A stretch of DNA of 64,000 nucleotides, from the NCBI RefSeq assembly GCF_000378485.1, contig NZ_KB899973.1, forward strand, positions 124,001-188,000. The letters run 5' to 3'. Position 1 is the stretch's first letter. Each line of letters starts with the position of its first letter. The DNA comes from Flavobacterium rivuli WB 3.3-2 = DSM 21788 (GTDB lineage: Bacteria > Bacteroidota > Bacteroidia > Flavobacteriales > Flavobacteriaceae). Positions 34,181 through 63,710 of the stretch are shown piece by piece. The notes under the pieces were generated by a model. The model ran no database searches. It was not told the origin of the DNA and saw only the letters and a list, made by a program, of their open reading frames with translations. The position numbers and the translations under genes are program-made.

Positions 34181-36649
34181 ATGGAAAAGACAATTGAAAA
34201 TATGTTTCCTATAATGGATGTGGAACATGACTGTATCATAAGCAAACAGGGAGATGTGACTATTGTATTTCGGGCCGACCTGCCTGAGATCTTTACGCTT
34301 TCCGACCAGGAATATGAAACCTTTCACCAGACGTGGGTAAAGGCCATTAAGATACTTCCAAAATTCAGCATATTCCATAAACAGGACTGGTTCCTGGACA
34401 GCAGCTACACGGCTGATTTTACTAAGGAAGATACAAGTTTCCTTAGCCGCAGCAGCGAGCGTTTTTTTAACGAACGTCCTTTTTTAGAGCACAGTTGCTA
34501 CATTATGCTGACTAAAAAGCCGGCAGGCCGAAAGACGTCAACATCGCTTTTCTCCAGCCTGCTGCGTACTACCGTAGTACCGGAAGAAACGCTCAAGCCA
34601 CAGCTACTACAGGAATTTCTGGACAGTGCAGGCCAGTTCCAGAGAATACTGGAAGACAGTGGTTTTGTAAAACTTACGCGGTTAAAAGAAGAAGAACTGA
34701 AAAGCCAGAGCCACAAGCTTGGTCTTATTGAGCGCTACTGCTACTTGGCAGAGAAGGATGATAACCTTATTATTAACGACCTCAAATTCGATGAGGGCTT
34801 GCGGGTCGGTGACAAATATTGCCAACTGTATACCCTTGCAGATGCTGAAGACCTGCCGGCGCTATGCGGCAGCCGTATCAACTACGATAAATATTCTACG
34901 GACAAAACTAAATTCAGCGTGGGATTTGCATCTACACTGGGCCAGTTGCTTTCGTGCAACCATATTTATAACCAGTATGTATTTATTGAAGATGCCCAAA
35001 AGACACTCCAAAAACTGGAAAGTAAAAGGCTGCGCCTGCAATCGCTATCGGCCTACAGCCGTGAGAATACGATTTCCAGGGATGCCACCAACGATTTTCT
35101 CAATGAGGCGATTGGGCAACAACGTTTACCGGTTAAGGCACATTTCAATGTACTGGCATGGACGGATACTAAAGAGGAACTTAAAGATTTGAAGAACATG
35201 ATCTCCTCGGCTATTGCACAAATGGATGCCGTAGCCAAGCAGGAAACCGTAGGCGCCCCGCAGATCTATTGGGCAGGCATACCCGGTAATGCAGCTGATT
35301 TTCCAATGAACGACACCTTTGATACGTTTGCACAGCAGGCTACCTGTTTCTTCAATTTAGAGACCGGCTACCGTTCTTCTATAAGCCCATTCGGCATCCG
35401 TTTGGGGGACCGCCTGACCGGAAAGCCGGTACACGTCGATATTAGTGATGAACCCATGGCAACGGGAATTATTACCAACCGGAATAAATTCATTTTGGGG
35501 CCGTCAGGCAGTGGGAAGTCTTTTTTCACGAATCATATGGAACGGAGCTATTATGAGCAAAACGCGCACATCGTACTTGTGGATGTAGGCCATAGCTATA
35601 AAGGGTTATGCGATATGGTAAATGGCTATTACTTCACGTACACCACCGAAAATCCTATCCGTTTCAACCCTTTTTTTATCGGGGAGGGCGACGCATTGGA
35701 TACCGAAAAAAAAGAAAGTATTAAAACATTACTGCTGGCCCTGTGGAAGAAGGATGATGAGTCGTTCCGTCGAAGTGAGTATGTAGCCTTATCTAATGTC
35801 ATCGCGGGCTACTACAGCAACCTTGAGGCTAAAGATGACGTATTCCCGGGCTTCAATAGTTTTTATGAATTCCTGCGCGATGAATATATTCAGGTACTTA
35901 AGGATGACCATGTAAAGGAACGGGACTTTGATATTGACAATTTCCTGTATGTGCTGCGCCCCTATTATGAAGGAGGTGAATTTGACTACCTGCTGAACGC
36001 GACGGAAAACCTTGACCTGCTGCAGGAGCGCTTTATCGTCTTTGAACTGGATAATATTAAGGACCACCCCATACTGTTTCCGGTGGTTACGATCATAATT
36101 ATGGAAGTCTTCATCAACAAGATGCGCAAGATGAAAGGCATCCGAAAAACGATACTGATCGAGGAGGCCTGGAAAGCCTTAATGAAGGAAGGTTTCGCAG
36201 AATATATAAAATATTTATTTAAAACGGTCAGGAAATTCTTTGGCGAGGCTATAGTGGTTACCCAGGATATTGAAGATATTATATCCTCCCCTGTGGTAAA
36301 ACAGGCCATTGTGAATAACAGTGACTGTAAAATACTCTTAGACCAGTCAAAGTACCAAAACAAATTCGACCAGATTCAGGAACTGCTTGGCCTTACCGAT
36401 AAGGAAAAAGCCCTTGTGCTGTCGATGAATAAGGCTAATGACCCTTCCAGGAAATACAAAGAAGTTTTCATATCCCTCGGCGGCACACAGTCAAAGGTCT
36501 ACCGTACCGAAGTATCGTTGGAAGAATATCTGGTCTACACAACGGAAGAAACGGAAAAAGTCAAGGTGCAGGCCTATGCCAAAAAATTTGATGGCGACAT
36601 TAAAAAGGGCATTGCGGCACTGGCTAATGATATACGTAACGGAATCTAA
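34181..36649 (+). CDS. traG: Conjugation ATPase TraG (VirB4-like)
   Basis: An 822-residue ATPase of the VirB4/TraG-Bacteroidetes family. The Walker A motif is GPSGSGKS at residues 440-447 (Lys446). A Walker B-type strand lies in ILIEEAWKAL, with a following VVTQDIEDI region. The N-terminal 400 residues carry the family's mixed region (LDSAGQFQRILEDSG, LGQLLSCNHIYNQYVFI). It powers assembly of the mating channel at the inner membrane. Full length, with no frameshift. Confidence 0.92.
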   Translation: MEKTIENMFPIMDVEHDCIISKQGDVTIVFRADLPEIFTLSDQEYETFHQTWVKAIKILPKFSIFHKQDWFLDSSYTADFTKEDTSFLSRSSERFFNERPFLEHSCYIMLTKKPAGRKTSTSLFSSLLRTTVVPEETLKPQLLQEFLDSAGQFQRILEDSGFVKLTRLKEEELKSQSHKLGLIERYCYLAEKDDNLIINDLKFDEGLRVGDKYCQLYTLADAEDLPALCGSRINYDKYSTDKTKFSVGFASTLGQLLSCNHIYNQYVFIEDAQKTLQKLESKRLRLQSLSAYSRENTISRDATNDFLNEAIGQQRLPVKAHFNVLAWTDTKEELKDLKNMISSAIAQMDAVAKQETVGAPQIYWAGIPGNAADFPMNDTFDTFAQQATCFFNLETGYRSSISPFGIRLGDRLTGKPVHVDISDEPMATGIITNRNKFILGPSGSGKSFFTNHMERSYYEQNAHIVLVDVGHSYKGLCDMVNGYYFTYTTENPIRFNPFFIGEGDALDTEKKESIKTLLLALWKKDDESFRRSEYVALSNVIAGYYSNLEAKDDVFPGFNSFYEFLRDEYIQVLKDDHVKERDFDIDNFLYVLRPYYEGGEFDYLLNATENLDLLQERFIVFELDNIKDHPILFPVVTIIIMEVFINKMRKMKGIRKTILIEEAWKALMKEGFAEYIKYLFKTVRKFFGEAIVVTQDIEDIISSPVVKQAIVNNSDCKILLDQSKYQNKFDQIQELLGLTDKEKALVLSMNKANDPSRKYKEVFISLGGTQSKVYRTEVSLEEYLVYTTEETEKVKVQAYAKKFDGDIKKGIAALANDIRNGI

Positions 36650-36660
36650 AACATACTACC

Positions 36661-37365
36661 ATGAAACTGAAAACTAAAATCACGCTTTTGCTTCTTTGCT
36701 TTTTACTGGCTACGCCGCCGGTACTGCCTGCCATACCTGCAAGCTCAACTACGACGGCTGCTATACCGCTGGTCAATATCATTAAGGAAGCCATTAAAAA
36801 AGTCATCAAAGCCATCGACCTTCGAATCCAGCGCTTGCAGAACAAGACGATCTGGCTGCAGAATGCCCAGAAGAAACTCGAAAATACGTTGTCAAAGCTA
36901 AAGCTGGATGAAATATCGGAATGGACTGAAAAACAGAAGGAACTCTATAAAGAGTATTATGATGAATTGATGAAGGTGAAAACAGTCATCACGTACTATA
37001 AACGCATCAGGGACATTACCGATAAGCAGGTGCGTCTGGTGGATGAGTATCAGAGGGCCTGGGAACTTTTGAGGCAGGATGATCATTTCAATGAAGGCGA
37101 GTTGCAGTATATGGATAAAGTCTATTCAGGGATACTGGACGAGAGCATCAAAAATATTGACCTGATTTTTATGATTCTGGATTCCTTTACAACACAGATG
37201 AGCGATGCAAAAAGGCTGGAACTCATTAATGCAGCGGCGGATCAGATCGATGGCAACTACGACGACCTGAAACTCTTTAACAAGCAAAATATGTTATTGA
37301 GCCTCCAGAGGGCTAAAGATATTAATGATGCCAATGCAGTGAAAAAGATATATGGTTTACCCTAA
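36661..37365 (+). CDS. TraI-like conjugal transfer protein (paralogue 1)
   Basis: A 234-residue exported protein: a signal peptide (LLLLCFLLATPPVLPAIPA), then a helical body with a long coiled coil (KVIKAIDLRIQRLQNKTIWL). It ends RAKDINDANAVKKIYGLP. The body pattern (ITYYKRIRDITDKQVRLVDEYQRA, DHFNEGELQYMDKVYSGIL, SDAKRLELI) recurs in the two genes at 37902 and 38530, so the three are tandem paralogues. TraI-type proteins are periplasmic parts of the transfer channel, perhaps VirB5-like. Confidence 0.72.
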   Translation: MKLKTKITLLLLCFLLATPPVLPAIPASSTTTAAIPLVNIIKEAIKKVIKAIDLRIQRLQNKTIWLQNAQKKLENTLSKLKLDEISEWTEKQKELYKEYYDELMKVKTVITYYKRIRDITDKQVRLVDEYQRAWELLRQDDHFNEGELQYMDKVYSGILDESIKNIDLIFMILDSFTTQMSDAKRLELINAAADQIDGNYDDLKLFNKQNMLLSLQRAKDINDANAVKKIYGLP

Positions 37366-37375
37366 AGCGAATAGT

Positions 37376-37813
37376 ATGTCAGAATTAACAGCTAATAATC
37401 TTTTTGAATTATTCGATGCCAAAGGATATACGGGCCTTACACGGTTCTATTCCCCATCATTTGAGTTCACAGATACCATTAAGGCTGGTTTGCAGCGGGT
37501 ACAGCAGGAATTTGCCGGTCAGATTGGCATAAGCACTTTCAGTTTGTCTTCCTACCCAGTTTGGGAGCGGCAGGGCGCTCCCTATGTATCCAGTTATGTT
37601 TTGTGCAGCTATAAAGATGAAAAAATTAGCGTCAGGCTTTTAGACCTGAGCTATAACAGGGGTACGCATAATGGTGAAATATCCAGGCAACTTCTAAATG
37701 AACCGGAACCTGGCGATATTCCTGACAAACAGCATTTGAGCGATACACTCAGGAATTTATCTACACAAAATAGCGAAACAAGAAAAAGAAATATTAAAAG
37801 ATATAAGTTATGA
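37376..37813 (+). CDS. Hypothetical protein in the tra operon
   Basis: A 145-residue soluble protein from ATG 37376; an in-frame ATG eight codons earlier (37352) lies inside the previous gene. Sequence such as YTGLTRFYSPSFEFTDTIKAGLQ and SVRLLDLSYNRGTHNGEIS shows no family that I recognise. Its TGA overlaps the next small ORF (ATGA), so it is translationally coupled. Confidence 0.55.
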   Translation: MSELTANNLFELFDAKGYTGLTRFYSPSFEFTDTIKAGLQRVQQEFAGQIGISTFSLSSYPVWERQGAPYVSSYVLCSYKDEKISVRLLDLSYNRGTHNGEISRQLLNEPEPGDIPDKQHLSDTLRNLSTQNSETRKRNIKRYKL

Positions 37814-37905
37814 AAGCATTTTTCTATAAATGTATTGCCATGATGGCCTTTAGCGTTGCCCATGACTGTACAATATTACGGACTACTTTAAACAAAGAAA
37901 GATGA
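37810..37905 (+). CDS. 31-residue small ORF coupled on both sides
   Basis: The ATG at 37810 overlaps the upstream stop as ATGA, and the TGA at 37903-37905 overlaps the start of the next gene as ATGA. The peptide starts MKAFFYKCIAMMAFSVAHDC, a hydrophobic, lipoprotein- or signal-like stretch, and ends TLNKER. It is too short for usual gene callers. The double coupling argues that it is translated, or at least keeps ribosomes moving between genes. Confidence 0.5.
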   Translation: MKAFFYKCIAMMAFSVAHDCTILRTTLNKER

Positions 37906-38525
37906 AAAAACTATTAATATACTGCCTGCTGACCGGTCTATTATCAGGTAGCCTGCAGGCACAGAACAAGCAGGCTAAAGTACTGCTGGAACAAATTGCC
38001 GCCCTACACATTTATATAGGCTATGTACAGGATGGCTATAGTACAGTTAAAAATGGGCTGGACGTTATCGGGGATTTTAAACGCGGTGAACTCAACCTGC
38101 ATGCCGGTTATTTCAGCTCCCTGAGGATGGTTAACCCAGCGGTTAAAGAGTACATAAAGGTTGCTGAAATCATTGCCCTACAGGCTAAAATACTGCAGAG
38201 CTCTAACAATACCCGGAATTTATTACAACAGGATGCTGACCTTTTTAATGGCAATGAGCTGGCATACGTGGGGAAGGTCTACGACAAGCTGCTGGAAGAC
38301 TGCGAACGTATTCTCAATGATCTGGAACCAGTGGTTACCGACGGCCAATTGGAGATGAAAGACGACGAGCGCATGGAACGCATTGATATGCTCCATGCGA
38401 ATATGACGGACAACTATATTTTTTGTAAGCGTTTCGGCAATAGCACCAAAGTACTCGCCGTATCAAGGATTAAAGAAGAGATGGATATACAAAACGCCCG
38501 TGCATTGCGCGGCATAAACGACTGA
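37902..38525 (+). CDS. TraI-like conjugal transfer protein (paralogue 2)
   Basis: A 207-residue exported protein with a signal peptide (LIYCLLTGLLSGSLQAQ) and a helical body: YVQDGYSTVKNGLDVIGDFK, AVKEYIKVAEIIALQAKIL, then NELAYVGKVYDKLLEDCERILNDL and a DDERMERIDMLHANM segment. It is closely related to the next gene and more distantly to the one at 36661. Probably a periplasmic element of the transfer channel. Confidence 0.7.
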   Translation: MKKLLIYCLLTGLLSGSLQAQNKQAKVLLEQIAALHIYIGYVQDGYSTVKNGLDVIGDFKRGELNLHAGYFSSLRMVNPAVKEYIKVAEIIALQAKILQSSNNTRNLLQQDADLFNGNELAYVGKVYDKLLEDCERILNDLEPVVTDGQLEMKDDERMERIDMLHANMTDNYIFCKRFGNSTKVLAVSRIKEEMDIQNARALRGIND

Positions 38526-38529
38526 AATT

Positions 38530-39168
38530 ATGAAAAAGCTATGTATACTACTACTACTGCTGACAATCTCTTTATCCTGCCCAAGTACGGGATATGCACA
38601 AGCCCAGGAATTGCAGCAACTGGCGCTCAACATCGAAAAGCTGGCGCAGTTCCGACAGATCCTGAAGGATATGAAAAAAGGTTATGAAATACTGACTCAA
38701 GGCTATAATACCGTAAAGGACCTCACGGAAGGGAACTTCAGCCTCCATAAAACATTCCTGGATGCTCTTCTTGAAGTTAGCCCTACGGTAAGGAATTATA
38801 AAAAAGTTGCTGAAATCGTTGAATACCAAATACAGTTGGTGCATGAATATTCGACTGCGCTGAACCGTTTCAGGGATAGCGGTGATTTTAATGATGAAGA
38901 ACTGGGCTACCTGGAACGGGTCTACGATAACCTCTTTAACCAGAGCCTGCGTAACCTCGATGAACTTACTGTTGTAATTACTGCCGGGGAACTGCGCATG
39001 TCGGACAGTGAACGCCTTGAAGCCATTGATAAAATCCATGCTGATATGCAGGACAAGCTGCTATTCTTAAGGGACTTCAATAATAACACTTCAGTGCTTG
39101 CGGTACAGCGCGCCAAAGAGCGCAACGAAGTAAATACAATGCGCAGCATTTACAGGGTAAACAACTAA
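38530..39168 (+). CDS. TraI-like conjugal transfer protein (paralogue 3)
   Basis: A 212-residue exported protein: signal peptide (LCILLLLLTISLSCPSTGYAQ), LEKLAQF-type helices, ILKDMKKGYEILTQGYNTVKDL, TVRNYKKVAEIVEYQIQL and ERLEAIDKIHADMQDKL. It starts four bases after paralogue 2 and shares its whole layout, so the pair arose by local duplication. It precedes traJ by 12 bp. Confidence 0.7.
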   Translation: MKKLCILLLLLTISLSCPSTGYAQAQELQQLALNIEKLAQFRQILKDMKKGYEILTQGYNTVKDLTEGNFSLHKTFLDALLEVSPTVRNYKKVAEIVEYQIQLVHEYSTALNRFRDSGDFNDEELGYLERVYDNLFNQSLRNLDELTVVITAGELRMSDSERLEAIDKIHADMQDKLLFLRDFNNNTSVLAVQRAKERNEVNTMRSIYRVNN

Positions 39169-39180
39169 AACATTACTACT

Positions 39181-40380
39181 ATGAAAAGGATAAGCAAGGC
39201 TGTAATCCTTACAGCCGCAGGGCTGGTACTGCCCTATTCTGCAAACTCTCAGGCCCTTGGAGATGAAATGAACAGCCTTCACGGCGTCCTTGAGCAACTC
39301 TATGATGAGATGATGCCTTTATGTAGTAACCTGCTCGGTGTTGGACAGGGAATTGCAGGGTTTGCTGCCCTTTGGTACATCGCCTCAAGGGTTTGGCGGC
39401 ACCTTGCAAATGCCGAACCCATAGATTTCTATCCGCTGTTCCGACCTTTCGTTATTGGTTTCTGCATTATGATATTCCCATCCGTACTGGCTATGATCAA
39501 CGGCATCATGAAGCCGACAGTCACTGCTACCGCAGCCATGGTGGAAGGCTCTAACAAAGCCATAGAAGTATTGCTCCAAAAGAAGGAAGAAGCTATAAAA
39601 ACAACCGATGTATGGCAAATGTATGTTGGGGAAGACGGTAGCGGTGACGAGGACCGCTGGTACAAATATACACATGACGGCGATGACCCCGATGACCAGG
39701 GAATTATATCGGGCATAGGGACTTCTATCAAATTCGCTATGGCAAAGGCGGCCTATAACTTCCAGAATTCTGTAAAAGAATGGATGAGTGAAGTACTCAG
39801 GGTCTTGTTTGAAGCTGCCTCACTGTGTATCGATACCCTGCGAACCTTCCAGCTTGTAGTACTTTCGATTCTTGGGCCATTGGTATTCGGGCTATCTGTA
39901 TTCGACGGTTTCCAGCATACCCTCACTGCCTGGTTGGCGCGCTATATCAATATATATCTATGGCTGCCGGTGGCCAATATCTTCGGCAGTATCATTGGCA
40001 AGATACAGGAAAAGATGCTGATGCTCGATATCGAGCAGGTAAACGATTACGGCGATACATTTTTCAGTAAGACCGATATGGCCTATCTCGCTTTTATGAT
40101 CATTGGTATCATAGGTTATTTTACGGTTCCTTCGGTTGCCAACTACATTGTACAGGCCGGCGGCAGCGGATTAAGCCAAAAAGTAACGAGCCTATTCAAT
40201 AGTGGCAGTTCTTCGGCAATACATTATGGCCAAGCTGGAGGCGGGGCTTTTGCGGAGCGTATGGGCCGTGGCCTTGTAAATATGGCCCACGCACCCTCAG
40301 ACATTATGGATGGTTACCAAAACGGCGGTCAGGAAAAGTCCGGCGGGCACCAGCACGACAAATTGAAAGGCAACTCCTAA
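39181..40380 (+). CDS. traJ: Conjugal transfer protein TraJ
   Basis: A 399-residue polytopic inner-membrane protein. A signal-like N-terminus (ILTAAGLVLPYSANSQA) is followed by several TM helices: GVGQGIAGFAALWYIA, PFVIGFCIMIFPSVLAMI, a central group LVVLSILGPLVFGLSVF and AYLAFMIIGIIGYFTVPSVANYIV. The C-terminus is Gly/His-rich. This is the TraJ pattern of Bacteroidetes conjugative transposons (VirB6-like). Full length, in the expected order before traK. Confidence 0.88.
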   Translation: MKRISKAVILTAAGLVLPYSANSQALGDEMNSLHGVLEQLYDEMMPLCSNLLGVGQGIAGFAALWYIASRVWRHLANAEPIDFYPLFRPFVIGFCIMIFPSVLAMINGIMKPTVTATAAMVEGSNKAIEVLLQKKEEAIKTTDVWQMYVGEDGSGDEDRWYKYTHDGDDPDDQGIISGIGTSIKFAMAKAAYNFQNSVKEWMSEVLRVLFEAASLCIDTLRTFQLVVLSILGPLVFGLSVFDGFQHTLTAWLARYINIYLWLPVANIFGSIIGKIQEKMLMLDIEQVNDYGDTFFSKTDMAYLAFMIIGIIGYFTVPSVANYIVQAGGSGLSQKVTSLFNSGSSSAIHYGQAGGGAFAERMGRGLVNMAHAPSDIMDGYQNGGQEKSGGHQHDKLKGNS

Positions 40381-40397
40381 CCTAAACTACAACCACT

Positions 40398-40961
40398 ATG
40401 TTCACTAAAATGAAAAATATAGATACCGCATTCCGGCATGTACGGGGTTTTACAATGCTCATTATTGCGGCATGCGTACTACTGAGTGGCTTTGCGCTTT
40501 ACAAAAGCTTTAGCCTTGTGGCCGGGATGCAGGAAAAAGTATACATCCTCGCTAATGGCAAAGCCCTCGAAGCCTATGCTTCCGACAGGAAAGATAACAT
40601 ACCTGTAGAGGCAAGAGACCATGTAAAGACGTTCCATAAACTTTTCTTTACCCTCGATCCCGATGAAAAGGTCATCCGCTTCAATGTCACCAAAGCACTC
40701 TACCTGGCCGATGACAGCGCAAAGCGGGTTTATGACGACCTGAAAGAGAACGATTATTATTCCGGTATCATTTCAGGAAATGTAAGCCAGACCATTGCAG
40801 TGGATAGTGTCCAGATAAGCATAAACGATTACCCATACCACTTCAGGTGCTATGCCACACAAAATATTATAAGGACGACAAGTATTGCCCACAGAAGCCT
40901 GATCACAGAGGGAAACCTGCGAAACGTTTCACGCAGCGACAACAACCCCATGGATTTTTGA
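40398..40961 (+). CDS. traK: Conjugal transfer protein TraK
   Basis: A 187-residue protein with one TM helix near the N-terminus (GFTMLIIAACVLLSGFALYKSF) and a periplasmic domain (ARDHVKTFHKLFFTLDPDEKVI, YHFRCYATQNIIRTTSIAHRSLITEG). The motif set is typical of Bacteroidetes TraK (VirB8-like). The start codon at 40398 was chosen; an in-frame ATG four codons later is possible. Confidence 0.87.
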   Translation: MFTKMKNIDTAFRHVRGFTMLIIAACVLLSGFALYKSFSLVAGMQEKVYILANGKALEAYASDRKDNIPVEARDHVKTFHKLFFTLDPDEKVIRFNVTKALYLADDSAKRVYDDLKENDYYSGIISGNVSQTIAVDSVQISINDYPYHFRCYATQNIIRTTSIAHRSLITEGNLRNVSRSDNNPMDF

Positions 40962-41020
40962 TTGAGCGTTGGAACACCATTGAAAACCGCGATTTAAGTA
41001 CCGAAAACAGAAAGTAGACT

Positions 41021-41518
41021 ATGAAAGCACTATTTAAAAAAAATAACGATAAGCCGGGCGAAAATAATGCGCCGGTTCCTAATGCTATAGCACGGCAGTT
41101 TGCCAAAGGATATTCATTTGTCCAGATGAAATGGGCAAAATGGATGGCAAGGAAAACCTCTAAATGGTCCAAAAGGAAACTAACCGCAACCCTTGTGTTT
41201 TTCTGCTTTGTAACAGGGGCCTACAGCACATACTTAATAGTATACAGCCTGCTAACACATGTCGAAGCAACAAGCTCAATAACTACAACCAAAATTTCGC
41301 GGCAGGCTGCTTTGTCTAAAACAATAGCACATAAAAGCGGGGCTGTTATCACCGATGAGGAAATGGATCGCATCATAGCATTCAGGCATTATCTGGACAG
41401 CCTTAAAACAACAGCAAGCGGAACTAAATCGTACGATAGTATTGTACAAAATTGTTCTGGGCTGCTGGATAGCTTAACTATAGTTGAAAATTATTATTAC
41501 CGAAATCTTAAACATTAA
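41021..41518 (+). CDS. Single-TM tra-operon protein (TraL position)
   Basis: A 165-residue protein with a basic cytoplasmic N-terminus (about 1-50, many Lys) and one TM helix (LTATLVFFCFVTGAYSTYLIVYSLL). The rest is a periplasmic helical domain. It occupies the traL position between traK and traM, but sequence similarity to TraL was not established. Confidence 0.6.
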   Translation: MKALFKKNNDKPGENNAPVPNAIARQFAKGYSFVQMKWAKWMARKTSKWSKRKLTATLVFFCFVTGAYSTYLIVYSLLTHVEATSSITTTKISRQAALSKTIAHKSGAVITDEEMDRIIAFRHYLDSLKTTASGTKSYDSIVQNCSGLLDSLTIVENYYYRNLKH

Positions 41519-41522
41519 AATC

Positions 41523-42800
41523 ATGGAAGAGAAACCTAAATCAGCAAAACTGCTCAGGCAACGTAAGATGCTTTTGGTACTGCCCCTGCTTGTACTGCCT
41601 TTTATAACTATGGCATTCTGGGCGTTGGGAGGGGGCAAAATGGATACCGCAAACGCCAATGCGGTGAAGGAAGGATTTAACCTGACCTTGCCGGGCTCCA
41701 ATCTAAAAGAAGGCACCGCCTTAGACAAGATGAATTATTATGAGAGGGCTGCGCTTGATTCCGCTAAACTTGAAGACCTGATAAAAAAAGACCCTAACTA
41801 TTTATCGAAGGCCGCAAAGACAGATGCGGAAAAACCTTTACAGGATACCACATCCCAGGGAAGTAACGACGGCTTGAAAACCTCGGGGTACCGCAACCCT
41901 AATGAAGAGAGGGTGTACAGGAAATTAGAAGCCCTTCAAAAAGCAATGAACAAGCCAGCAACATCCCAGCGACATAATGTAGCATCCCGATACCCAAAGC
42001 CCGCTTCTGAGGATGCTGACGAAGATATTGCAAAATTGGAAGCGATGATGCAATCGATGAACCAGCCACAGGGAACCGATCCCGAAATGCAGCAACTTAA
42101 CGGGATGCTTGAGAATATCCTCGACATCCAGCACCCGCAGAGGGCACAGGAAAAATTGAAAAAGGCCTCAGAGGCGCAACGCGGACAGGTTTTCGCGGTC
42201 GGCACCGGTACAGCGGAAGAAAGTGTATCCTCATTAAATGCATCCAATAGCAGTACGGCTTTAGCGGCGGGCCATTCAACACGAAACGGATTTTATTCTA
42301 TTGAGGAGCCTTTATATGGCGATGTCCTTCAAAATGCGGTCCAGGCTGCTATCCATGAAACACAAACCGTAGTAAACGGCTCCACGGTAAAGCTAAGGCT
42401 GGCCTCAGATATCTTCATTAATGGGATTAAAGTCCCTAAAGATAATTTCCTGTTCGGTACTGCTTCCCTTAAAGGTGAAAGGCTTTCTATAACGATAAAC
42501 AGCCTACGGTTTAATAATTCACTTTTTCCAGTGGAACTCTCGGTCTATGATATGGACGGCATGGAGGGCATTTATATTCCCGGTGCGATCAGCCGCGATG
42601 TGGGCAAAGCATCAGCTGATCGGTCAGTACAGACCTTAGGTGTGGCCACCCTCGACGATTCCTGGAGTGCGCAGGCGGCAGGTGCAGGTATCGAAGCTGC
42701 CAAAACCCTTTTCAGTAAGAAAATTAAACTGATCAAAGTGGTCGTCAAATCCGGTTACCAGGTGCTGCTGAAAGATGAAAAACAAAAAACTACCCACTAA
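41523..42800 (+). CDS. traM: Conjugal transfer protein TraM
   Basis: A 425-residue protein read from ATG 41523 (MEEKPKSAKLLRQRKML). The longer in-frame start at 41484 lies inside the previous gene. One N-terminal TM helix (LLVLPLLVLPFITMAFWALG) is followed by a long Gln/Asn/Lys-rich linker and a C-terminal domain (LASDIFINGIKVPKDNFLFGTASLKGERLSITI), the hallmark of Bacteroidetes TraM (VirB10-like). It overlaps nothing but ends just before traN. Confidence 0.88.
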   Translation: MEEKPKSAKLLRQRKMLLVLPLLVLPFITMAFWALGGGKMDTANANAVKEGFNLTLPGSNLKEGTALDKMNYYERAALDSAKLEDLIKKDPNYLSKAAKTDAEKPLQDTTSQGSNDGLKTSGYRNPNEERVYRKLEALQKAMNKPATSQRHNVASRYPKPASEDADEDIAKLEAMMQSMNQPQGTDPEMQQLNGMLENILDIQHPQRAQEKLKKASEAQRGQVFAVGTGTAEESVSSLNASNSSTALAAGHSTRNGFYSIEEPLYGDVLQNAVQAAIHETQTVVNGSTVKLRLASDIFINGIKVPKDNFLFGTASLKGERLSITINSLRFNNSLFPVELSVYDMDGMEGIYIPGAISRDVGKASADRSVQTLGVATLDDSWSAQAAGAGIEAAKTLFSKKIKLIKVVVKSGYQVLLKDEKQKTTH

Positions 42801-42816
42801 TTTTAATTATAGTATC

Positions 42817-43680
42817 ATGAAAAATATCAAATTAATTGTAACAACCTGTTTCCTCCTGTTGATCAGTATGGCCTACCCGCAGCAAAATATCACGGGTACC
42901 GTCGTAAAGGCGGACTCTTTGTCAATCACCTGTACAAAGACTACAAGTGTCGTGTTCCCTTACGCTATTAAAAGTGTTGACAGGGGCAGCCTGGATATAC
43001 TGGTCCAGAAAGCTAAAGGCTTTGAAAATGTATTACAGGTAAAAGCAGCTGTGGAATGCTTTACAGAAACGAACCTGACGGTAATAACCTCCGATGGAAA
43101 ACTCTATTCTTTCTTGCTCAACTATAACGAGCAGCCTAAAGTTTTTAATATACAAGTTACTAAATCTGAAAATGGAGCCCCCGTAAATGCATTTTCATTT
43201 AATGGGGCCAATGCAGAAGAACTTAAACAATTTTCAACATTGGCTTTAGCGCACAGGAAAAAGTTAAGGGGTGTAAAAGATTACAAAAGTAGCATCAGAT
43301 TCCGTCTTACTGGTTTATTCATTCATGAGGGGATTTTGTATTACAGGATAACTATTAAAAACGATTCCAATATTAACTATGATATTGAGCAACTGCGCTT
43401 CTTTATCCGTGACCAAAAAAAGGCAAAACGGACTGCGTCCCAGGAGATAGAGCTTACACCGGTCTATGTTGATAGACCTGTTACACAGGTGAAAGGTAAT
43501 AGCCAAAATACTGTCGTTTATGCATTGCCCAAGTTCACCATCCCCGATAAGAAATACATGGCTATACAACTTATGGAAAAAAATGGGGGCCGGCACCTTG
43601 AACTTAAGGTAAAGAACAAAACTATCCTTAATTCGGTACTCCTTGAACCAATAAATGCCGGCAGCAATGATCATCAATAG
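42817..43680 (+). CDS. traN: Conjugal transfer protein TraN
   Basis: A 287-residue periplasmic protein from ATG 42817 (MKNIKLIVTTCFLLLISMAYPQQ signal peptide). The upstream in-frame ATG at 42775 is inside traM. The domain contains VVFPYAIKSVDRGSLDILVQKA, VKAAVECFTETNLTVITSDGKLYSFLL and FRLTGLFIHEGILYYRI, typical of TraN (VirB9-like). It is followed by an overlapping gene. Confidence 0.88.
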   Translation: MKNIKLIVTTCFLLLISMAYPQQNITGTVVKADSLSITCTKTTSVVFPYAIKSVDRGSLDILVQKAKGFENVLQVKAAVECFTETNLTVITSDGKLYSFLLNYNEQPKVFNIQVTKSENGAPVNAFSFNGANAEELKQFSTLALAHRKKLRGVKDYKSSIRFRLTGLFIHEGILYYRITIKNDSNINYDIEQLRFFIRDQKKAKRTASQEIELTPVYVDRPVTQVKGNSQNTVVYALPKFTIPDKKYMAIQLMEKNGGRHLELKVKNKTILNSVLLEPINAGSNDHQ

Positions 43681-45296: not shown

Positions 45297-45581
45297 ATGA
45301 GCGAAGGTATTACTAAAGACGATTTAAGGCAATTTGGCCTGCTATTAATGGATAACATAAAAGTAATAATTGGTAAAGCACCTGACAAGGATGATATACA
45401 TCCTGACTGGTTAAAGAGCAGGGTAGTTAGAAAGCTGCTGGATATGTCGCCTGGAACGCTACAGAATTTGCGTATTACCGGAAAGGTACGGTATAAAAAG
45501 ATCCTTGGCTCCTACTATTATAATAAAGCAGACTTACAGCGATTGTTTAACGAAGATAGTAAGAGTCATGAAAGCGGATAA
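45297..45581 (+). CDS. Excisionase-like helix-turn-helix protein (copy 1)
   Basis: A 94-residue protein with a MerR/excisionase-type HTH: DWLKSRVVRKLLDMSPGTLQNLRITGKVRYKKILGSYYYNKADLQRLF. Paralogues are the intact gene at 62120 and the truncated one at 47799. Such proteins act as small DNA-binding regulators or excision factors in Bacteroidota elements. Its end overlaps the next gene by 14 bp. Confidence 0.72.
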   Translation: MSEGITKDDLRQFGLLLMDNIKVIIGKAPDKDDIHPDWLKSRVVRKLLDMSPGTLQNLRITGKVRYKKILGSYYYNKADLQRLFNEDSKSHESG

Positions 45582-46285: not shown

Positions 46286-46780
46286 ATGGATATGCAATTT
46301 CATAAATATAAAGGAATACATCCCGGAGCGATAGTAGCACGTGAGCTAAAAAAAAGAGCACTTGCACAACGCCCTTTTGCCTAAGAAATAGGTACTGCAC
46401 CTCAATCTTTTAACCAGATTATAAAAGCAAAAAGGCCTTTACCCTTATCAGCCGCTTTAAAAATAGAAAAAGCGCTTAGTTTGGAAGAAGGTGCATTAGC
46501 GGTACTACAAACCTATTATGACATTGAAATCCAAAAATTAAAAGATGCCACAATAACAAAGCCTAATATTACGCGCCTGAGAAAAAGCTTGTTCTGGGAT
46601 ACGGATATTGATGCAATTGACTGGGAGAAAAAGTCAAAGGCAGTCATTGAGCGGATATTTGAAAGGGGGAATATTACTGAAAAGAAAGTAATAATCCGGT
46701 TCTATGGAACTCCGAAAGTACGGAGTATCATCTCAAACCCCAGTACAAAGGCTAAGTTCACGAGAAGCCATAAGCCCTAA
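46286..46780 (+). pseudogene. HigA-like/DUF6922 AbiEi-type antitoxin, nonsense mutation
   Basis: From ATG 46286 the frame reads MDMQFHKYKGIHPGAIVARE, with the XRE HTH (RALAQRPFA, then TAA at 46382-46384), and goes on in the same frame with IGTAPQSFNQIIKAKRPLP, LRKSLFWDTDIDAIDWEKK and RFYG up to 46780. The intact copy at 60760 has a Leu (TTA) where this one has TAA, so a single base change killed it. The HTH plus DUF6922 layout is that of an antitoxin paired with an AbiEii nucleotidyltransferase. Confidence 0.8.
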
Positions 46781-46798
46781 CTATAACAACGCTTAATT

Positions 46799-47466
46799 AT
46801 GCATTGGCAAACGGTAAACGAACTTCTTCGCAAGACCTTGGTATTACTTATGAATTCCACAGAATTTGATGAATTTCGCTTAGTAGGCGGCACTGCGCTC
46901 AGCCTGCAATTGGGGCACAGGTTATCGGTAGATATAGATCTTTTTACTGATGCCGACTACGGCTCCATTGATTTTAAAATCATTGAGGATTTTCTTGATG
47001 CTAATTTTGGGTATGTTGACAAAGGGTTTGGAACAATAACCGGAATGGGAAAGTCTTATTTAGTTGGAGAAGATCGTGAAAACACCGTAAAATTGGACCT
47101 CTTTTACACAACAGACCCATTTATGGAACCACCTTTACTAATCGAAGAAATAAGGATGGCAACTTTAGATGAGATTATAGCCATGAAAGTCGATGTTGTG
47201 CAACGTACAGGCCGCAAGAAAGACTTTTATGATCTGTATGATGTATTACCCCGATATAGTATAAAAGAGATGATTGCACTTCATAAAAGACGTTACCAGT
47301 ATTCGCACGACGAGGCACTAATCCGCGAAATTTCAAAAATTTCACTGAAGCCGATGATGATTTTGATCCTGTTTGCCTGCGTGGTTATTATTGGGATTTT
47401 ATTAAAGAAGACATTATTAGTGCAATCGACAATGAACAGCTCCCCAACGCCCAGGCACAGCCTTAA
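46799..47466 (+). pseudogene. AbiEii-like nucleotidyltransferase toxin, frameshifted C-terminus
   Basis: Residues 1-178 match the intact paralogue at 61268: VGGTALSLQLGHRLSVDIDLFT with the GG and DxD active-site motifs, KLDLFYTTDPFMEPP and MKVDVVQRTGRKKDFYDLYDV. After ALIR the native frame would need GNFKNFTEADDDF..., but one G is missing near 47330 and the open frame runs on into junk to 47575. Restoring the G gives the proper end ...DIISAIDNEQLPNAQAQP and stops at 47464-47466. Both genes of this copy are thus damaged. Confidence 0.78.
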
Positions 47467-47756
47467 AATTAAGATGCCTAGCAAATTAGTAAGTTTAGTG
47501 AATATCAAACTCCTGCATTCAGCCAAGATTTTTAAAAGAATTACTTTTAGAAAAATTACAAAGATGTATCTGTAATCTAAGATTATTAGTACTTTTGCAC
47601 TATATATCCATTGGATTATAACGATCATTTAAATTATTTAAGCTTCGTGCAGGAGCTTCCCACTACATAAAAAATTTATACCCTAAAAATGGGTGTATTT
47701 AAATCTTTGGCAAAATCGGGGGCAATCCAATTTTAAAAAAGTAAAAAGCTCAGTAT

Positions 47757-47797
47757 TTGCAAGGGTTTTAGGGCTTAGGTTCGATTCTTGGCAAAAC
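47757..47797 (+). other. tRNA-3'-end-like sequence at a recombination junction
   Basis: The stretch contains GCAAGGGTTTTAGGG and AGGTTCGATTCTTGGC, a T-arm-like GGTTCGATTC motif without the rest of a tRNA. It closely matches 62637-62682. It directly abuts the truncated excisionase-like fragment at 47799. A degenerate GGCAAAATCGGGGGCAA repeat lies just upstream (47709-47724). This fits an old attachment site or a crossover scar. Confidence 0.45.
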
Positions 47798-47798
47798 C

Positions 47799-47990
47799 TG
47801 GCTTAAGAGTAAGGAGGTGCGTAAACTCTTGGACATATCAACAGGCACGCTCCAATACCTAGGCATAAATGGTACTTCACCTTATAGCAAAATTGGAGGA
47901 ATACTTTACTATAAATATTGCGATATCCTTAAACTGATAAGCGATAAAAAAAGAGGTCAGATGACACCCGAAAACCAATTTCAAATATGA
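47799..47990 (+). pseudogene. Truncated excisionase-like HTH gene (copy 2)
   Basis: The open frame starts without a start codon at WLKSKEVRKLLDISTGTLQYL and runs IGGILYYKYCDILKLIS to a TGA at 47988-47990. It matches the C-terminal two thirds of the genes at 45297 and 62120 (DWLKSRVVRKLLDMSPGTL). The N-terminal 30 or so residues are replaced exactly where the tRNA-like sequence ends, so the truncation is a recombination event. Confidence 0.72.
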
Positions 47991-48186
47991 GGTATTTCTG
48001 TGAAGAAATCACTAAATCCTCTTTAAAATTACCGTTAAAATTCATGCGTGAGTTATTCTGTGCAAGAGTTAAAATTCAGGCACATCTAATTATTTTATAA
48101 GTATTTACGAGTAGGTTGTCGGACTACTACTCCTACTCAAACAACAAATTAAACGCCCTGTAACTATTTATTATTTATAAATTTTT

Positions 48187-48339
48187 AATGAAGACCAGGC
48201 TGTAAAAAATATCCAACGCGACCATCAGGAGCGCCTGCTACCCTACTGGGAGCGTTTGAAGAAGCAAGGCGTGCCGAAAAAAAGAACCCAGCCGGAACAA
48301 AACCCTAACTTTCTGAAAAGCATATCTAATCTTATCTAA
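48187..48339 (+). pseudogene. Unidentified C-terminal gene fragment
   Basis: A 50-codon open stretch with no start codon ends at TAA 48337-48339. It has protein-like sequence (VKNIQRDHQERLLPYWERL and PKKRTQPEQNPNFL) and higher GC than the surrounding gap. It may be the tail of a mobilisation or replication protein, but the family is not recognised. The rest of the 47991-48604 gap shows nothing convincing. Confidence 0.35.
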
Positions 48340-48604
48340 ATAACTTTAGTCCCTTTAAAAAAGAATATCTAATGCCCAACTATAAAAGGAGACTTCGTAT
48401 CCCCTACCCGCTTATAAATGCTTTTTGCTCGTAACTGCTCAGGTACAACATAAAACTGCGAAGTGCATGGTATAAGAGTTTCTAAAATCGAATAGCTGTT
48501 GTAGGCACCATTTGGTATAGGAACGGGGGGAATTGGTATAATTTCCAAAACCAGCCTTATAAAAACGGGTATTTTGGCACTCATAATGACCAGAGTATCC
48601 AATT

Positions 48605-60759: not shown

Positions 60760-61266
60760 ATGAACCCACAATTTGAGAAATATAAAGGTATCCATCCCGG
60801 TGCTATACTTGAACGTGAACTCAAAAAAAGAGACCTTGCGCAACGCCCTTTTGCATTATCAATTGGAATTGCCCCCCAGTCATTTAACCAAATTATTAAA
60901 ACTAAGAGGCCCTTACCTATATCTGCCGCTCTAAAGATAGAAAGAGCCCTTAACTTGGAAGAGGGCGCTTTAGCCTTATTGCAAACCTATTATGATATCA
61001 GTATTGAAAAAATGAAAAACTCATTTCATCCGAAACCTAATTTAATACACTTACGAAAAAGCCTGTTTTGGGATACCGCTATTGACACAATAGATTGGGA
61101 AAAACAATCAAAAGCAGTAATTGAGAGAATTTTTGAACGGGGAAATTTAACTGAGAAGAAAGAAATCATACGTTTTTATGGCTCTTCCAAGATCCGTTCT
61201 ATAATCTCGGCGCCATCAGCTAAAGCGAAACTTATAAGAGGTATACAAATTAAACCACTACTATAG
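60760..61266 (+). CDS. HigA-like/DUF6922 antitoxin of an AbiE-type module
   Basis: A 168-residue protein. The N-terminal 70 residues form a HigA-type XRE domain: HPGAILERELKKRDLAQRPFALSIGIAPQSFNQIIKTKRPLPISAALKIERALNLEEG. A DUF6922-like domain follows (HLRKSLFWDTAIDTIDWEKQSKAVIERIFERGN, EIIRFYGSSKIRSII). It pairs with the AbiEii nucleotidyltransferase one base downstream, so it is likely the antitoxin and autorepressor of a type IV-like toxin-antitoxin system. Intact, unlike the copy at 46286. Confidence 0.82.
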   Translation: MNPQFEKYKGIHPGAILERELKKRDLAQRPFALSIGIAPQSFNQIIKTKRPLPISAALKIERALNLEEGALALLQTYYDISIEKMKNSFHPKPNLIHLRKSLFWDTAIDTIDWEKQSKAVIERIFERGNLTEKKEIIRFYGSSKIRSIISAPSAKAKLIRGIQIKPLL

Positions 61267-61267
61267 G

Positions 61268-61933
61268 ATGATATATTGGAAAACTGTAAATGATCTGCTT
61301 CGGGAAACTTTACTGCTCCTAATGCGTTCAAAAGAATTAGATGAATTTCCCCTTGTAGGTGGCACTGCACTAAGCCTGCAGTTAGGTCACAGAATGTCAG
61401 TAGATATAGACCTTTTCACTGACGCTGAGTACGGTTCAATAGATTTTAAAAGCATTGAAAGTTTTCTAGAAGCAAACTTCTCCAACGTTGATAAAGGATT
61501 TGGGGACGTTATCGGAATGGGAAAATCCTATCTCGTAGGATCAGATGTAAACGACACAATCAAGCTTGACCTTTATTACACTACAGATCCGTTTATAGAA
61601 CCGCCATTGATAATAGAAGAGATTAGGATGGCAACTCTAAATGAGATTATAGCTATGAAAGTGGATGTTATCCAGCGTACCGGCCGTAAGAAAGATTTTT
61701 GGGACCTTTATGAAGTACTACCAAAATATAGTATAAAGGATATGATAGCACTCCATAAAAGCCGGTATAAATATTCACATGATGAAGTTTTGATACGAGG
61801 CAACTTTGTGAATTTTAGTGAAGCAGACGATGATTTCGAACCTATTTGTCTCCGCGGCAATTATTGGGAATTCATTAAGGAAGATATTATCAACGCAATC
61901 GAAAAGGAATATAAGACTATGCGTAAAAATTAA
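61268..61933 (+). CDS. AbiEii-like nucleotidyltransferase toxin
   Basis: A 221-residue nucleotidyltransferase: G31-G32 in VGGTALSLQLGHRMS and D46/D48 in SVDIDLFT form the active site. Further on lie KLDLYYTTDPFIEPP and MKVDVIQRTGRKKDFWDLYEV. AbiEii-type enzymes of this superfamily act on RNA, usually tRNA, when freed from their antitoxin. The start codon is one base after the antitoxin stop. Full length by comparison with the frame-restored copy 1. Confidence 0.85.
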   Translation: MIYWKTVNDLLRETLLLLMRSKELDEFPLVGGTALSLQLGHRMSVDIDLFTDAEYGSIDFKSIESFLEANFSNVDKGFGDVIGMGKSYLVGSDVNDTIKLDLYYTTDPFIEPPLIIEEIRMATLNEIIAMKVDVIQRTGRKKDFWDLYEVLPKYSIKDMIALHKSRYKYSHDEVLIRGNFVNFSEADDDFEPICLRGNYWEFIKEDIINAIEKEYKTMRKN

Positions 61934-62389: not shown

Positions 62390-62636
62390 AAAGATAGTTA
62401 GTTGATGTTGCTTCGCATAATTAATGTAAACTCCCCTATTTATTTCGAATCTCCACCATCAGCAAAATTGCAATATTAAAAAGGCAATAATTGATGGCTA
62501 TTTTCAATTCTGCGCGTAAATATTTTTTATAAGTTTGCATTATAACAGTTTTATGAAATTACAACTGTAAATCAACACTTTACAACTTAGGTGCAAATCA
62601 GGTGCAAGTTTTAATTGCATGCTTTAAAATATAGGT

Positions 62637-62682
62637 TTTACAAGGGTTTTCGAAGCAGGTTCGATTCCCGGCGAAAAAACTC
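62637..62682 (+). other. tRNA-3'-end-like sequence
   Basis: Contains ACAAGGGTTTTCGAAGCAGG and GGTTCGATTCCCGGCG. The T-arm-like motif is present but no full cloverleaf precedes it. It matches the sequence at 47757-47797 well and probably marks an old integration site of the same element family. Confidence 0.42.
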
Positions 62683-62840
62683 GCTTTGCAATAATCGTTT
62701 TACTTTTGGATGGGAAATATTTTCTTTTTTATTTACCTTTGTAGTCTAGTGATTTTGAATTATACCGTTATATTTAAACGTTTTAGCTTTATTAAAACAA
62801 AGTTTTTTTACTATAAAATCTCCTATAAAACAGGGTTTAA

Positions 62841-62864
62841 TTTTTGTGGCAGAATCGTGGCACA
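62841..62864. repeat. GTGGCA-type direct repeat, copy A
   Basis: The unit GTGGCAnAATCGTGGCAC, preceded by a T-run, recurs at 63080-63103 with one mismatch, and a degenerate form lies near 47709. Each unit itself contains two GTGGCA half-sites 11 bases apart, like integrase arm-type binding sites. Function inferred from position only. Confidence 0.5.
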
Positions 62865-62892
62865 ACCTTGATTAGAGATTTGAAAATGCAGC

Positions 62893-62940
62893 ATTGGCGG
62901 GGGTTTCGGGCATTACGTTCGAATCCTTCTCTCCCCACGA
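62893..62940 (+). other. Second tRNA-3'-end-like scar
   Basis: Reads as GGCGGGGGTTTCGGGCATT followed by ACGTTCGAATCC and TTCTCTCCCCAC, similar to a tRNA T-arm and acceptor end but without a matching 5' half. The terminator 64 bp downstream would suit a tRNA gene. Probably a displaced fragment of a tRNA used as attachment site. Confidence 0.4.
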
Positions 62941-63003
62941 AATGGGTAAAAAAGTAAAAAAAGGCAACTTTTCAAACTTTATAAAAACCCACAAAAATCG
63001 TGT

Positions 63004-63042: not shown

Positions 63043-63079
63043 TTAAGCACCCCTCCAAAATTTATAAAGAAGCCCAAAG

Positions 63080-63103
63080 TTTTTGTGGCAAAATCGTGGC
63101 ACA
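63080..63103. repeat. GTGGCA-type direct repeat, copy B
   Basis: Second copy of the GTGGCAnAATCGTGGCAC unit (see 62841). Its right half also forms an inverted repeat, GTGGCACATT (63096-63105) with AATGTGCCAC (63119-63128). The remaining gap to 63710 is AT-rich with no gene visible. Confidence 0.5.
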
Positions 63104-63710
63104 TTGACACATTTTAAAAATGTGCCACAAAACTCCACGTAAGGAGTTAAAAATCAAGATGTAATTCAGCTATACGTCATGATTTTTAAAGCGGTGTAAT
63201 TCTATATTTAAAAAGATTGGCCCTAAACTTAAATTTATAAAATCATATTCCGAAGTCGATAACACATTGCATAAATTAATTACGTTGAACCCCTCTCCAC
63301 CAATTTTAATCACGCTACTAATTACTTGTATACCAATAGAAATAGTGGTCAATTCTAAATCGGCGAAAGGGGTCAATCAAGTTCGGTTTATCCAATTTCT
63401 ATAGCCATATATATCAAGATCAGTTTACTATTTATTATCAAATTGAGTTTTGTATTCCAAGAGTCAAAAGCTTAAAACTAATTTTTATAAAAATAATACA
63501 TATATATAGTAAAAATTCGATTAAAATTATTAATTATTAAAATTTACATAAAACATATTGCTGATATAGAAAAATAGTTTTATACTTGTAGTCATATTAA
63601 CCATTTTTGAAAACGTTATAGCTTTTGTGTTAATTCCCCATTTTATACAAAATGTATAATCTCTAAAAATATTTCAAGAAAACTCTATTTAATTATTTAC
63701 ATACCCAATC

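Follow-up and report, generated by a model that had tools for sequence, protein, structure and literature searches.

A decayed attachment-type end beside a fragment of an excisionase-like gene in a composite island of Flavobacterium rivuli

The window, which is the whole stretch of 64,000 nucleotides analysed here, comes from Flavobacterium rivuli and belongs to a contig of 194 kb (C8). Its features are listed in Table 1. A CTnDOT-type set of conjugation genes and an AbiEii-like gene lie to the left of a sequence termed site A, and the 3′ part of a small HTH_17/excisionase-like gene lies immediately to its right. There are two pairs of DUF6922 and AbiEii genes (46481-47575 and 60760-61933), each near an attachment-type end. 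In addition, the segment 8364-10793 encodes a SMODS synthetase and a SLATT_4 effector, with a RES-domain gene behind them, and is likely a CBASS-like defence locus in the island.

Table 1. Features of the window and their coordinates
Feature	Position	Strand	Remarks
CTnDOT-type conjugation genes (TraG, TraJ, TraM, DUF4138)	34181-43680	+	left of site A
Intact paralogue of the fragmented gene	45297-45581	+	2.2 kb upstream of the fragment
AbiEii-like gene	46799-47575	+	adjoins site A; preceded by a DUF6922 gene (46481-46780)
Site A, two arm-type direct repeats, imperfect	47707-47725	+	TTGGCAAAATCGGGGGCAA; commonest form elsewhere TGGCA-N6-TGGCA
Site A, AT-rich spacer and CAGTATTTGCAA stretch	47726-47762	+	alignable with other ends
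Site A, element-side half-site GGGTTTTAGGGCTTAGG	47763-47779	+	
Site A, T-loop core TTCGATTCTTGGC	47780-47792	+	closest to tmRNA-like ends (TTCGATTCTCGGCGATTCCAC in L230)
HTH_17/excisionase-like 3′ fragment	47793-47990	+	without a proper start; pseudogene
Site B	62590-62673	+	repeats GGTGCA.., half-site GGGTTTTCGAAGC, core TTCGATTCCCGGCGA; interrupted 15 nt past the T-loop start
Site C, intact far end of the island	62827-62951	+	letters 62917-62951 recur unchanged at tRNA-Tyr (C8:62540-62574)
Second near end (arm repeats) right of site C	63085-63102	+	without integrase hit; tandem remnant

The gene fragment begins at about 47793-47799, a few bases past a copy of GGTTCGATTC (47778-47787). The first base of its WLKSKEVRK codons is 47799, and the letters that precede them at the joint are GGTTCGATTCTTGGC. 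Its frame is open from 47772, because there is a TAG at 47769, and extends to a stop codon at 47988-47990, giving a translation of GLGSILGKT-WLKSKEVRK..., or GLGSILGKT-WLKSKEVRKLLDISTGTLQ.... We built a profile from 99 homologous frames matching a W-L-K-S-type expression, of which 92 are distinct, four rows are the genome's own paralogues and 98 carry an xT..DL-type N-terminus. The fragment matches this profile (E 1.5e-23) exclusively at positions 34-86 of 89, starting with K-T-W. The initial annotation described an excisionase-like gene cut at this joint, and the confined match indicates that the cut is real. The distance from the assigned start to the W codon is 30-51 residues across the 99 frames, and therefore roughly the first third of the gene is missing.

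The fragment falls below the cut-off for Pfam HTH_17 (PF12728; E 0.014, 16.1 bits vs 27), it matches solely a PHROG of unknown function (1.7e-3), and NCBIfam holds no family for it or for four nearby proteins. The intact paralogue at 45297-45581 barely reaches the HTH_17 cut-off (5e-6, 27.1 bits vs 27), has weak matches to excisionase PHROGs 7735 and 66 (2.4e-4 and 3.7e-4), and finds its best solved structure at E 0.081. It is one of three intact paralogues in the genome, the others being located at C8:186.1k (window ~62.1-62.4 kb) and C3:19.0k, with C8:169.3k as its own position.

Relatives of the gene are present in 60 of 199 genomes of the family (E 1e-9), 31 of 398 of the genus (1e-16) and 8 of 395 of the class (1e-15), and at 44 loci in the species collection. 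There is one distant relative among viral contigs, which hold no matches to two core patterns, and a search of plasmid DNA gave no match. The nearest relatives are at most ~75% identical in protein sequence, and thus the junction cannot be compared at the DNA level; the intact junction in relatives that had been proposed as a check was not found. An orphan N-terminal part is likewise absent from the whole genome, in which the next matches to the N-terminal profile have E values of 0.08 and 5.7, and no frame of the contig stretch upstream of the joint carries convincing N-terminal similarity.

The sequence at the joint was initially described as tRNA-like, and this holds for its T-arm letters only. 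ARAGORN finds no tRNA or tmRNA gene in the window, Rfam finds no family at its gathering score, and site A was ruled out as a tRNA gene since neither program detects a cloverleaf. The cut had been placed 'exactly' at these letters, which in practice stands for a distance of 11 bases from GGTTCGATTC to the W codon, five of which (TTGGC) still resemble the tmRNA-type core. There are six places in the window that match this 10-mer with at most one mismatch, compared to 2.75 expected, and 5 of 100 shuffles reach the same number. Thus, the 10-mer by itself is weak evidence.

Both exact copies of GGTTCGATTC in the window (47778 and 62658) belong to attachment-type ends, the second of which is weak by the model described below. 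The genome contains 11 exact copies, 8 forward and 3 reverse. Five are in tRNA genes, one is in the tmRNA gene and one is in a partial tRNA-Phe copy, while the rest comprise one in a tRNA-like array on contig C3, one elsewhere on C7, and those of sites A and B. In the array (C3:173.1-177.4 kb; L046/L144), a GGGTTACTTCG-like motif that contains T-arm letters and scores weakly as tRNA in Rfam is repeated seven times. The array sits between frames of 504 and 510 amino acids, which presumably resemble Ro60/TROVE and RtcB, a setting known from Y-RNA-like arrays. The partial tRNA-Phe 3′ copy is about 33 kb from a tRNA-Phe pair (C2:482.6-516.1 kb), with an integrase gene at C2:483.6k, and this region is probably another island.

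Site A begins with a pair of repeats resembling arm sites, continues with an AT-rich spacer and a half-site containing GGGTTT, and ends in a T-loop core, which is the arrangement of a far end. Sites A, B and C align over ~110 bases comprising repeats, spacer and core. This architecture is common to site A and site C, more weakly to site B, and to ends in other genomes of the genus. To survey such ends, we used the pattern GGGTTTN6TTANGTTCGANTC with at most one mismatch. There are 45 matching places in 42 of 398 genus genomes, three of them in the F. rivuli genome, compared to 17 for a letter-reversed control, and therefore part of these hits must be due to chance. A stricter pattern is found in 2 of 397 genomes of the family, being the window's own match and one other. 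All 42 foreign hits were read, and comparison of the last 60 bases leaves 39 different ones. Both TGGCA repeats (at most one mismatch, at -53/-54) are present in 22 of these 39, whereas L202 and its copy L238, L206, L224, L236, L239 and L243 have neither arms nor a tRNA tail and look like chance matches.

A model of 29 foreign ends, which took in three of the dubious ones (L202, L206 and L243), was searched against C8:60000-193639, a region of 133.6 kb that supplied no training sequence. It scores site C at E 1e-18, site A at 1.4e-15 and site B at 0.036. Because the pattern was derived from site A, site C and locus L147 on contig C11, only the part upstream of the core tests independently. We consequently removed the selected 25-nt core and the three dubious ends, and the resulting model of 26 ends places site A (7e-8) second to site C (1.7e-11) in the same region, with site B not listed up to E 5. 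The loci, 52 in number and 238 kb in total, were fetched for carrying the core. They contain 41 distinct matches that extend to the end of the full model, of which 36 have E values of 1e-8 or better, scored in-sample; letter-reversed loci give no hit at E 0.01. By eye, 24 of the 36 continue into a tRNA or tmRNA 3′ end, eight are interrupted (L211, L221, L234, L237, L242, L248 and two in L244) and four are unclear (L217, L223, L227 and L241). Locus L244 (G1165:C16, 1604-1147) packs three attachment-type ends into 460 bp, two of them interrupted and the third intact, which can be compared with the close pair of sites B and C in the window.

On these grounds the stretch 47690-47792 is identified, from sequence comparison, as the far-end attachment site (attR type) of a tRNA/tmRNA-targeting tyrosine-integrase element, nearest to those with tmRNA-like ends. 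Loci L230, L231, L229 and L205 share CTTAGGTTCGATTC with site A, and their tails resemble the 3′ end of the tmRNA of F. rivuli itself, which served as the reference. A complete tRNA or tmRNA 3′ end is absent beyond the core of site A, where the tmRNA-type tail is left after 9 bases (13 with one mismatch). Two other core assignments were considered. A tRNA-Arg(CCT)-type core, suggested by a 14-nt T-arm match, was dropped since the closest foreign sites carry tmRNA-like tails, and a CTnDOT-type core was rejected because, by eye, its motif is a better fit to letters near 47588 than to site A. A far end of the same type, with a tRNA-Val-like tail, is found on C11 (15.8-38.9 kb; L147, L153 and L154), and a tRNA-Val gene and an integrase gene are located 23 kb away from it.

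It is conceivable that the T-arm-like letters are simply native linker codons (S-I-L-G-K-T-W) of a gene that decayed by mutation. The linker of homologues is indeed highly variable, with L075 reading KTILGSQTEQKKW, and the 10-mer alone is not rare. However, the 80 nucleotides upstream match attachment ends independently, and no frame of the contig stretch upstream shows convincing similarity to the missing N-terminus. Furthermore, none of 91 distinct homologous stretches, each covering the 105 nt upstream of the W codon, contains the core; the best has 9 of 15 bases, which is not above shuffles. Thus, the core is foreign to the gene, and we regard a chance origin as very improbable. The same count favours the initial annotation, for which the same joint occurring in other genomes without tRNA-like letters would have been the contrary case. 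The tRNA-like letters are the eroded end of an ancient mobile DNA element, and this end now directly adjoins the rear part of a small DNA-binding gene.

At site C, 35 bp are identical to a tRNA-Tyr gene 124 kb away (C8:62540-62574), the core of the site running into the 3′ end of the tRNA. This gene is followed by arm repeats and an integrase gene (C8:62.85-64.15 kb), the only PF00589 hit of the contig. The identity indicates that the window up to 62.95 kb is inside an island of ~124 kb, and site A accordingly maps within a composite island at tRNA-Tyr. To the right of site C, the arms and flanks at 63074-63107 resemble those by the tRNA-Tyr gene (C8:62480-62760) and form a second near end without an integrase hit, a tandem remnant adjoining the 124 kb island.

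There is no integrase at a partner end of site A, since the contig has a single PF00589 hit at E values up to 0.01, which adjoins tRNA-Tyr and thus belongs to the partner end of site C. In C8:60000-193639, neither a further integrase nor the remnant of one is seen. A search of C8:108000-193639 for a left partner of site A gives a 14-mer near site C and otherwise 11-12-mers at about the level of chance. A mis-assembly at site A is unlikely, because the site has no exact stretch longer than 14 bases in the rest of that region and is located well inside the contig.

One possible history is tandem accretion followed by decay, wherein the right side of the joint is the near end of a second element that lost its tRNA end and integrase and retained a small DNA-binding gene. 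Tandem junctions of this type do exist, as with the integrase-less near end beside site C. Moreover, L249 (the same site as L237) has an integrase-like frame, assigned by eye, 440 bp past its core, and a homologous gene is located ~2 kb from tRNA-Pro in one island of the F. rivuli genome. Models that detect near-end arms elsewhere nevertheless find no arm repeats to the right of site A, and the gene starts at an internal codon immediately past the core. We therefore consider this history improbable.

The interrupted ends give a hint of the place at which such joints are formed. We defined the breakpoint as the last position, counted in nucleotides from the start of the T-loop, up to which an end is identical to the most similar of 12 intact tails. 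The set includes 13 ends, with classes assigned by eye: sites A and B, seven of the eight interrupted ends and the four unclear ends; the second L244 end was left out since it diverges before position 8. Identity stops at 15 in five ends (B, L211, L237, L248b and L241), at 16 in L221, at 14 in L242, and at 8 in L234 and L244b. The other four of the 13 stop at 13 (L217), 11 (L227), 9 (site A; 13 with one mismatch) and 2 (L223; 17 with one mismatch). Thus, apart from site A, 7 of 12 ends break at 14-16 and 2 of 12 at 8, representing fewer independent cases because L221 and L242 apparently go back to a single event and L241 is possibly a genuine tRNA end. By random continuation, a value of at least 15 is obtained in 9 of 20,000 trials.

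Tyrosine recombinases usually have an overlap of 6-8 bases. An overlap of 7 bases, consistent with this range and retained either from the target or from the element, is suggested by the breakpoints at 8 and 15. At site A, positions 9-15 read TTGGCAA, which has 5 of 7 bases in common with TCGGCGA, the tmRNA type, and therefore these may be the target's own letters. The joint would then be somewhere in 47787-47794, where the sequence would switch to that of the gene.

The explanation that we judge somewhat probable is that an element recombined at a secondary target inside the HTH_17/excisionase-like gene, and that the integrase end and the 5′ part of the gene were later lost. Perhaps a tRNA/tmRNA-type element encountered such a gene, of a kind found in mobile elements, as a non-tRNA target. 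Strand exchange might have occurred over a 7-base overlap directly past the T-loop (47788-47794), within the 7 bases that follow TTCGANTC, so that the left side retained the half-site of the element and the right side that of the target. Further insertions that rebuilt the island could then have removed the integrase end and the 5′ gene part. Homologous genes have no core-like target at the corresponding place, which counts against a secondary site, and a reciprocal junction carrying the rest of the gene is not found genome-wide and was possibly lost.

The missing reciprocal part, the lack of a second integrase and of a core in homologues, a breakpoint at site A that is not at 15, and a remnant on the right together make an origin by deletion or decay possible. 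In this alternative, site A once ran into a tmRNA 3′ end, and a later deletion or illegitimate joining unrelated to the integrase brought in the fragment. The region to the right of the fragment (47991-48604) has another short open remnant (48202-48336, with no Pfam family), the 5′ part of the gene is absent, and the interrupted end of L248 is followed ~150 bp further by frames that resemble IS transposases by eye. However, the breakpoint of site A is at most ~15 bases from the T-loop, and the gathering of other breakpoints at 14-16 counts against random deletion, for which no preferred place is expected. We consequently view such a deletion as rather unlikely.

Whichever event formed it, the joint consists of a decayed attachment-type end and an adjacent gene fragment, both located in a composite island, and as a fossil joint it is of a kind already known. 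The initial annotation had proposed a crossover at an attachment-like site. The attachment-type site is well supported by the shared architecture and the core-free model, whereas we infer the crossover itself. More speculatively, the integrases of this family might regularly use non-tRNA targets for recombination, genes of other mobile elements among them, such that interrupted ends would mark a 7-base overlap at positions 9-15; we offer this only as a tentative proposal. If true, composite islands would grow by repeated off-target insertion plus tandem insertion at tRNA genes. Site A illustrates how one such island may have been assembled. From interrupted ends such as this one, the crossover point of these integrases may be readable directly in genomes. 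The survey also yields a signature by which far ends belonging to one group of integrative elements of the genus can be recognized in sequence, and for which no description was found in the literature searched, consisting mostly of papers available without subscription.

The island can be compared with several known systems. The TraG, TraJ, TraM and DUF4138 genes to the left of site A are like those of the CTnDOT-type conjugative transposons of Bacteroidetes. The core of CTnDOT itself is a GTANNTTTGC-type site and, unlike in CTnDOT, the attachment ends described here are of the tRNA/tmRNA T-loop type. The intact paralogue at 45297-45581 weakly resembles HTH_17/excisionase-family proteins and is a putative excisionase, and the fragment corresponds to such a protein without its N-terminal third.

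A genomic island of Riemerella anatipestifer at an Arg-tRNA gene has a 53 bp repeat, which is located downstream of that gene (PMC6764341). It shares with the present island an integrase beside a tRNA gene and a repeat at the far-end junction, which here corresponds to site C and tRNA-Tyr; site A differs in that it is now without a tRNA/tmRNA end and an integrase of its own. For Salmonella genomic island 1, a secondary attachment site and tandem arrays are reported, with integration observed in the laboratory (PMC2297512). Our case is deduced from one old junction and concerns another family. The likeness is an integrative element at a second, non-primary target and the formation of tandems.
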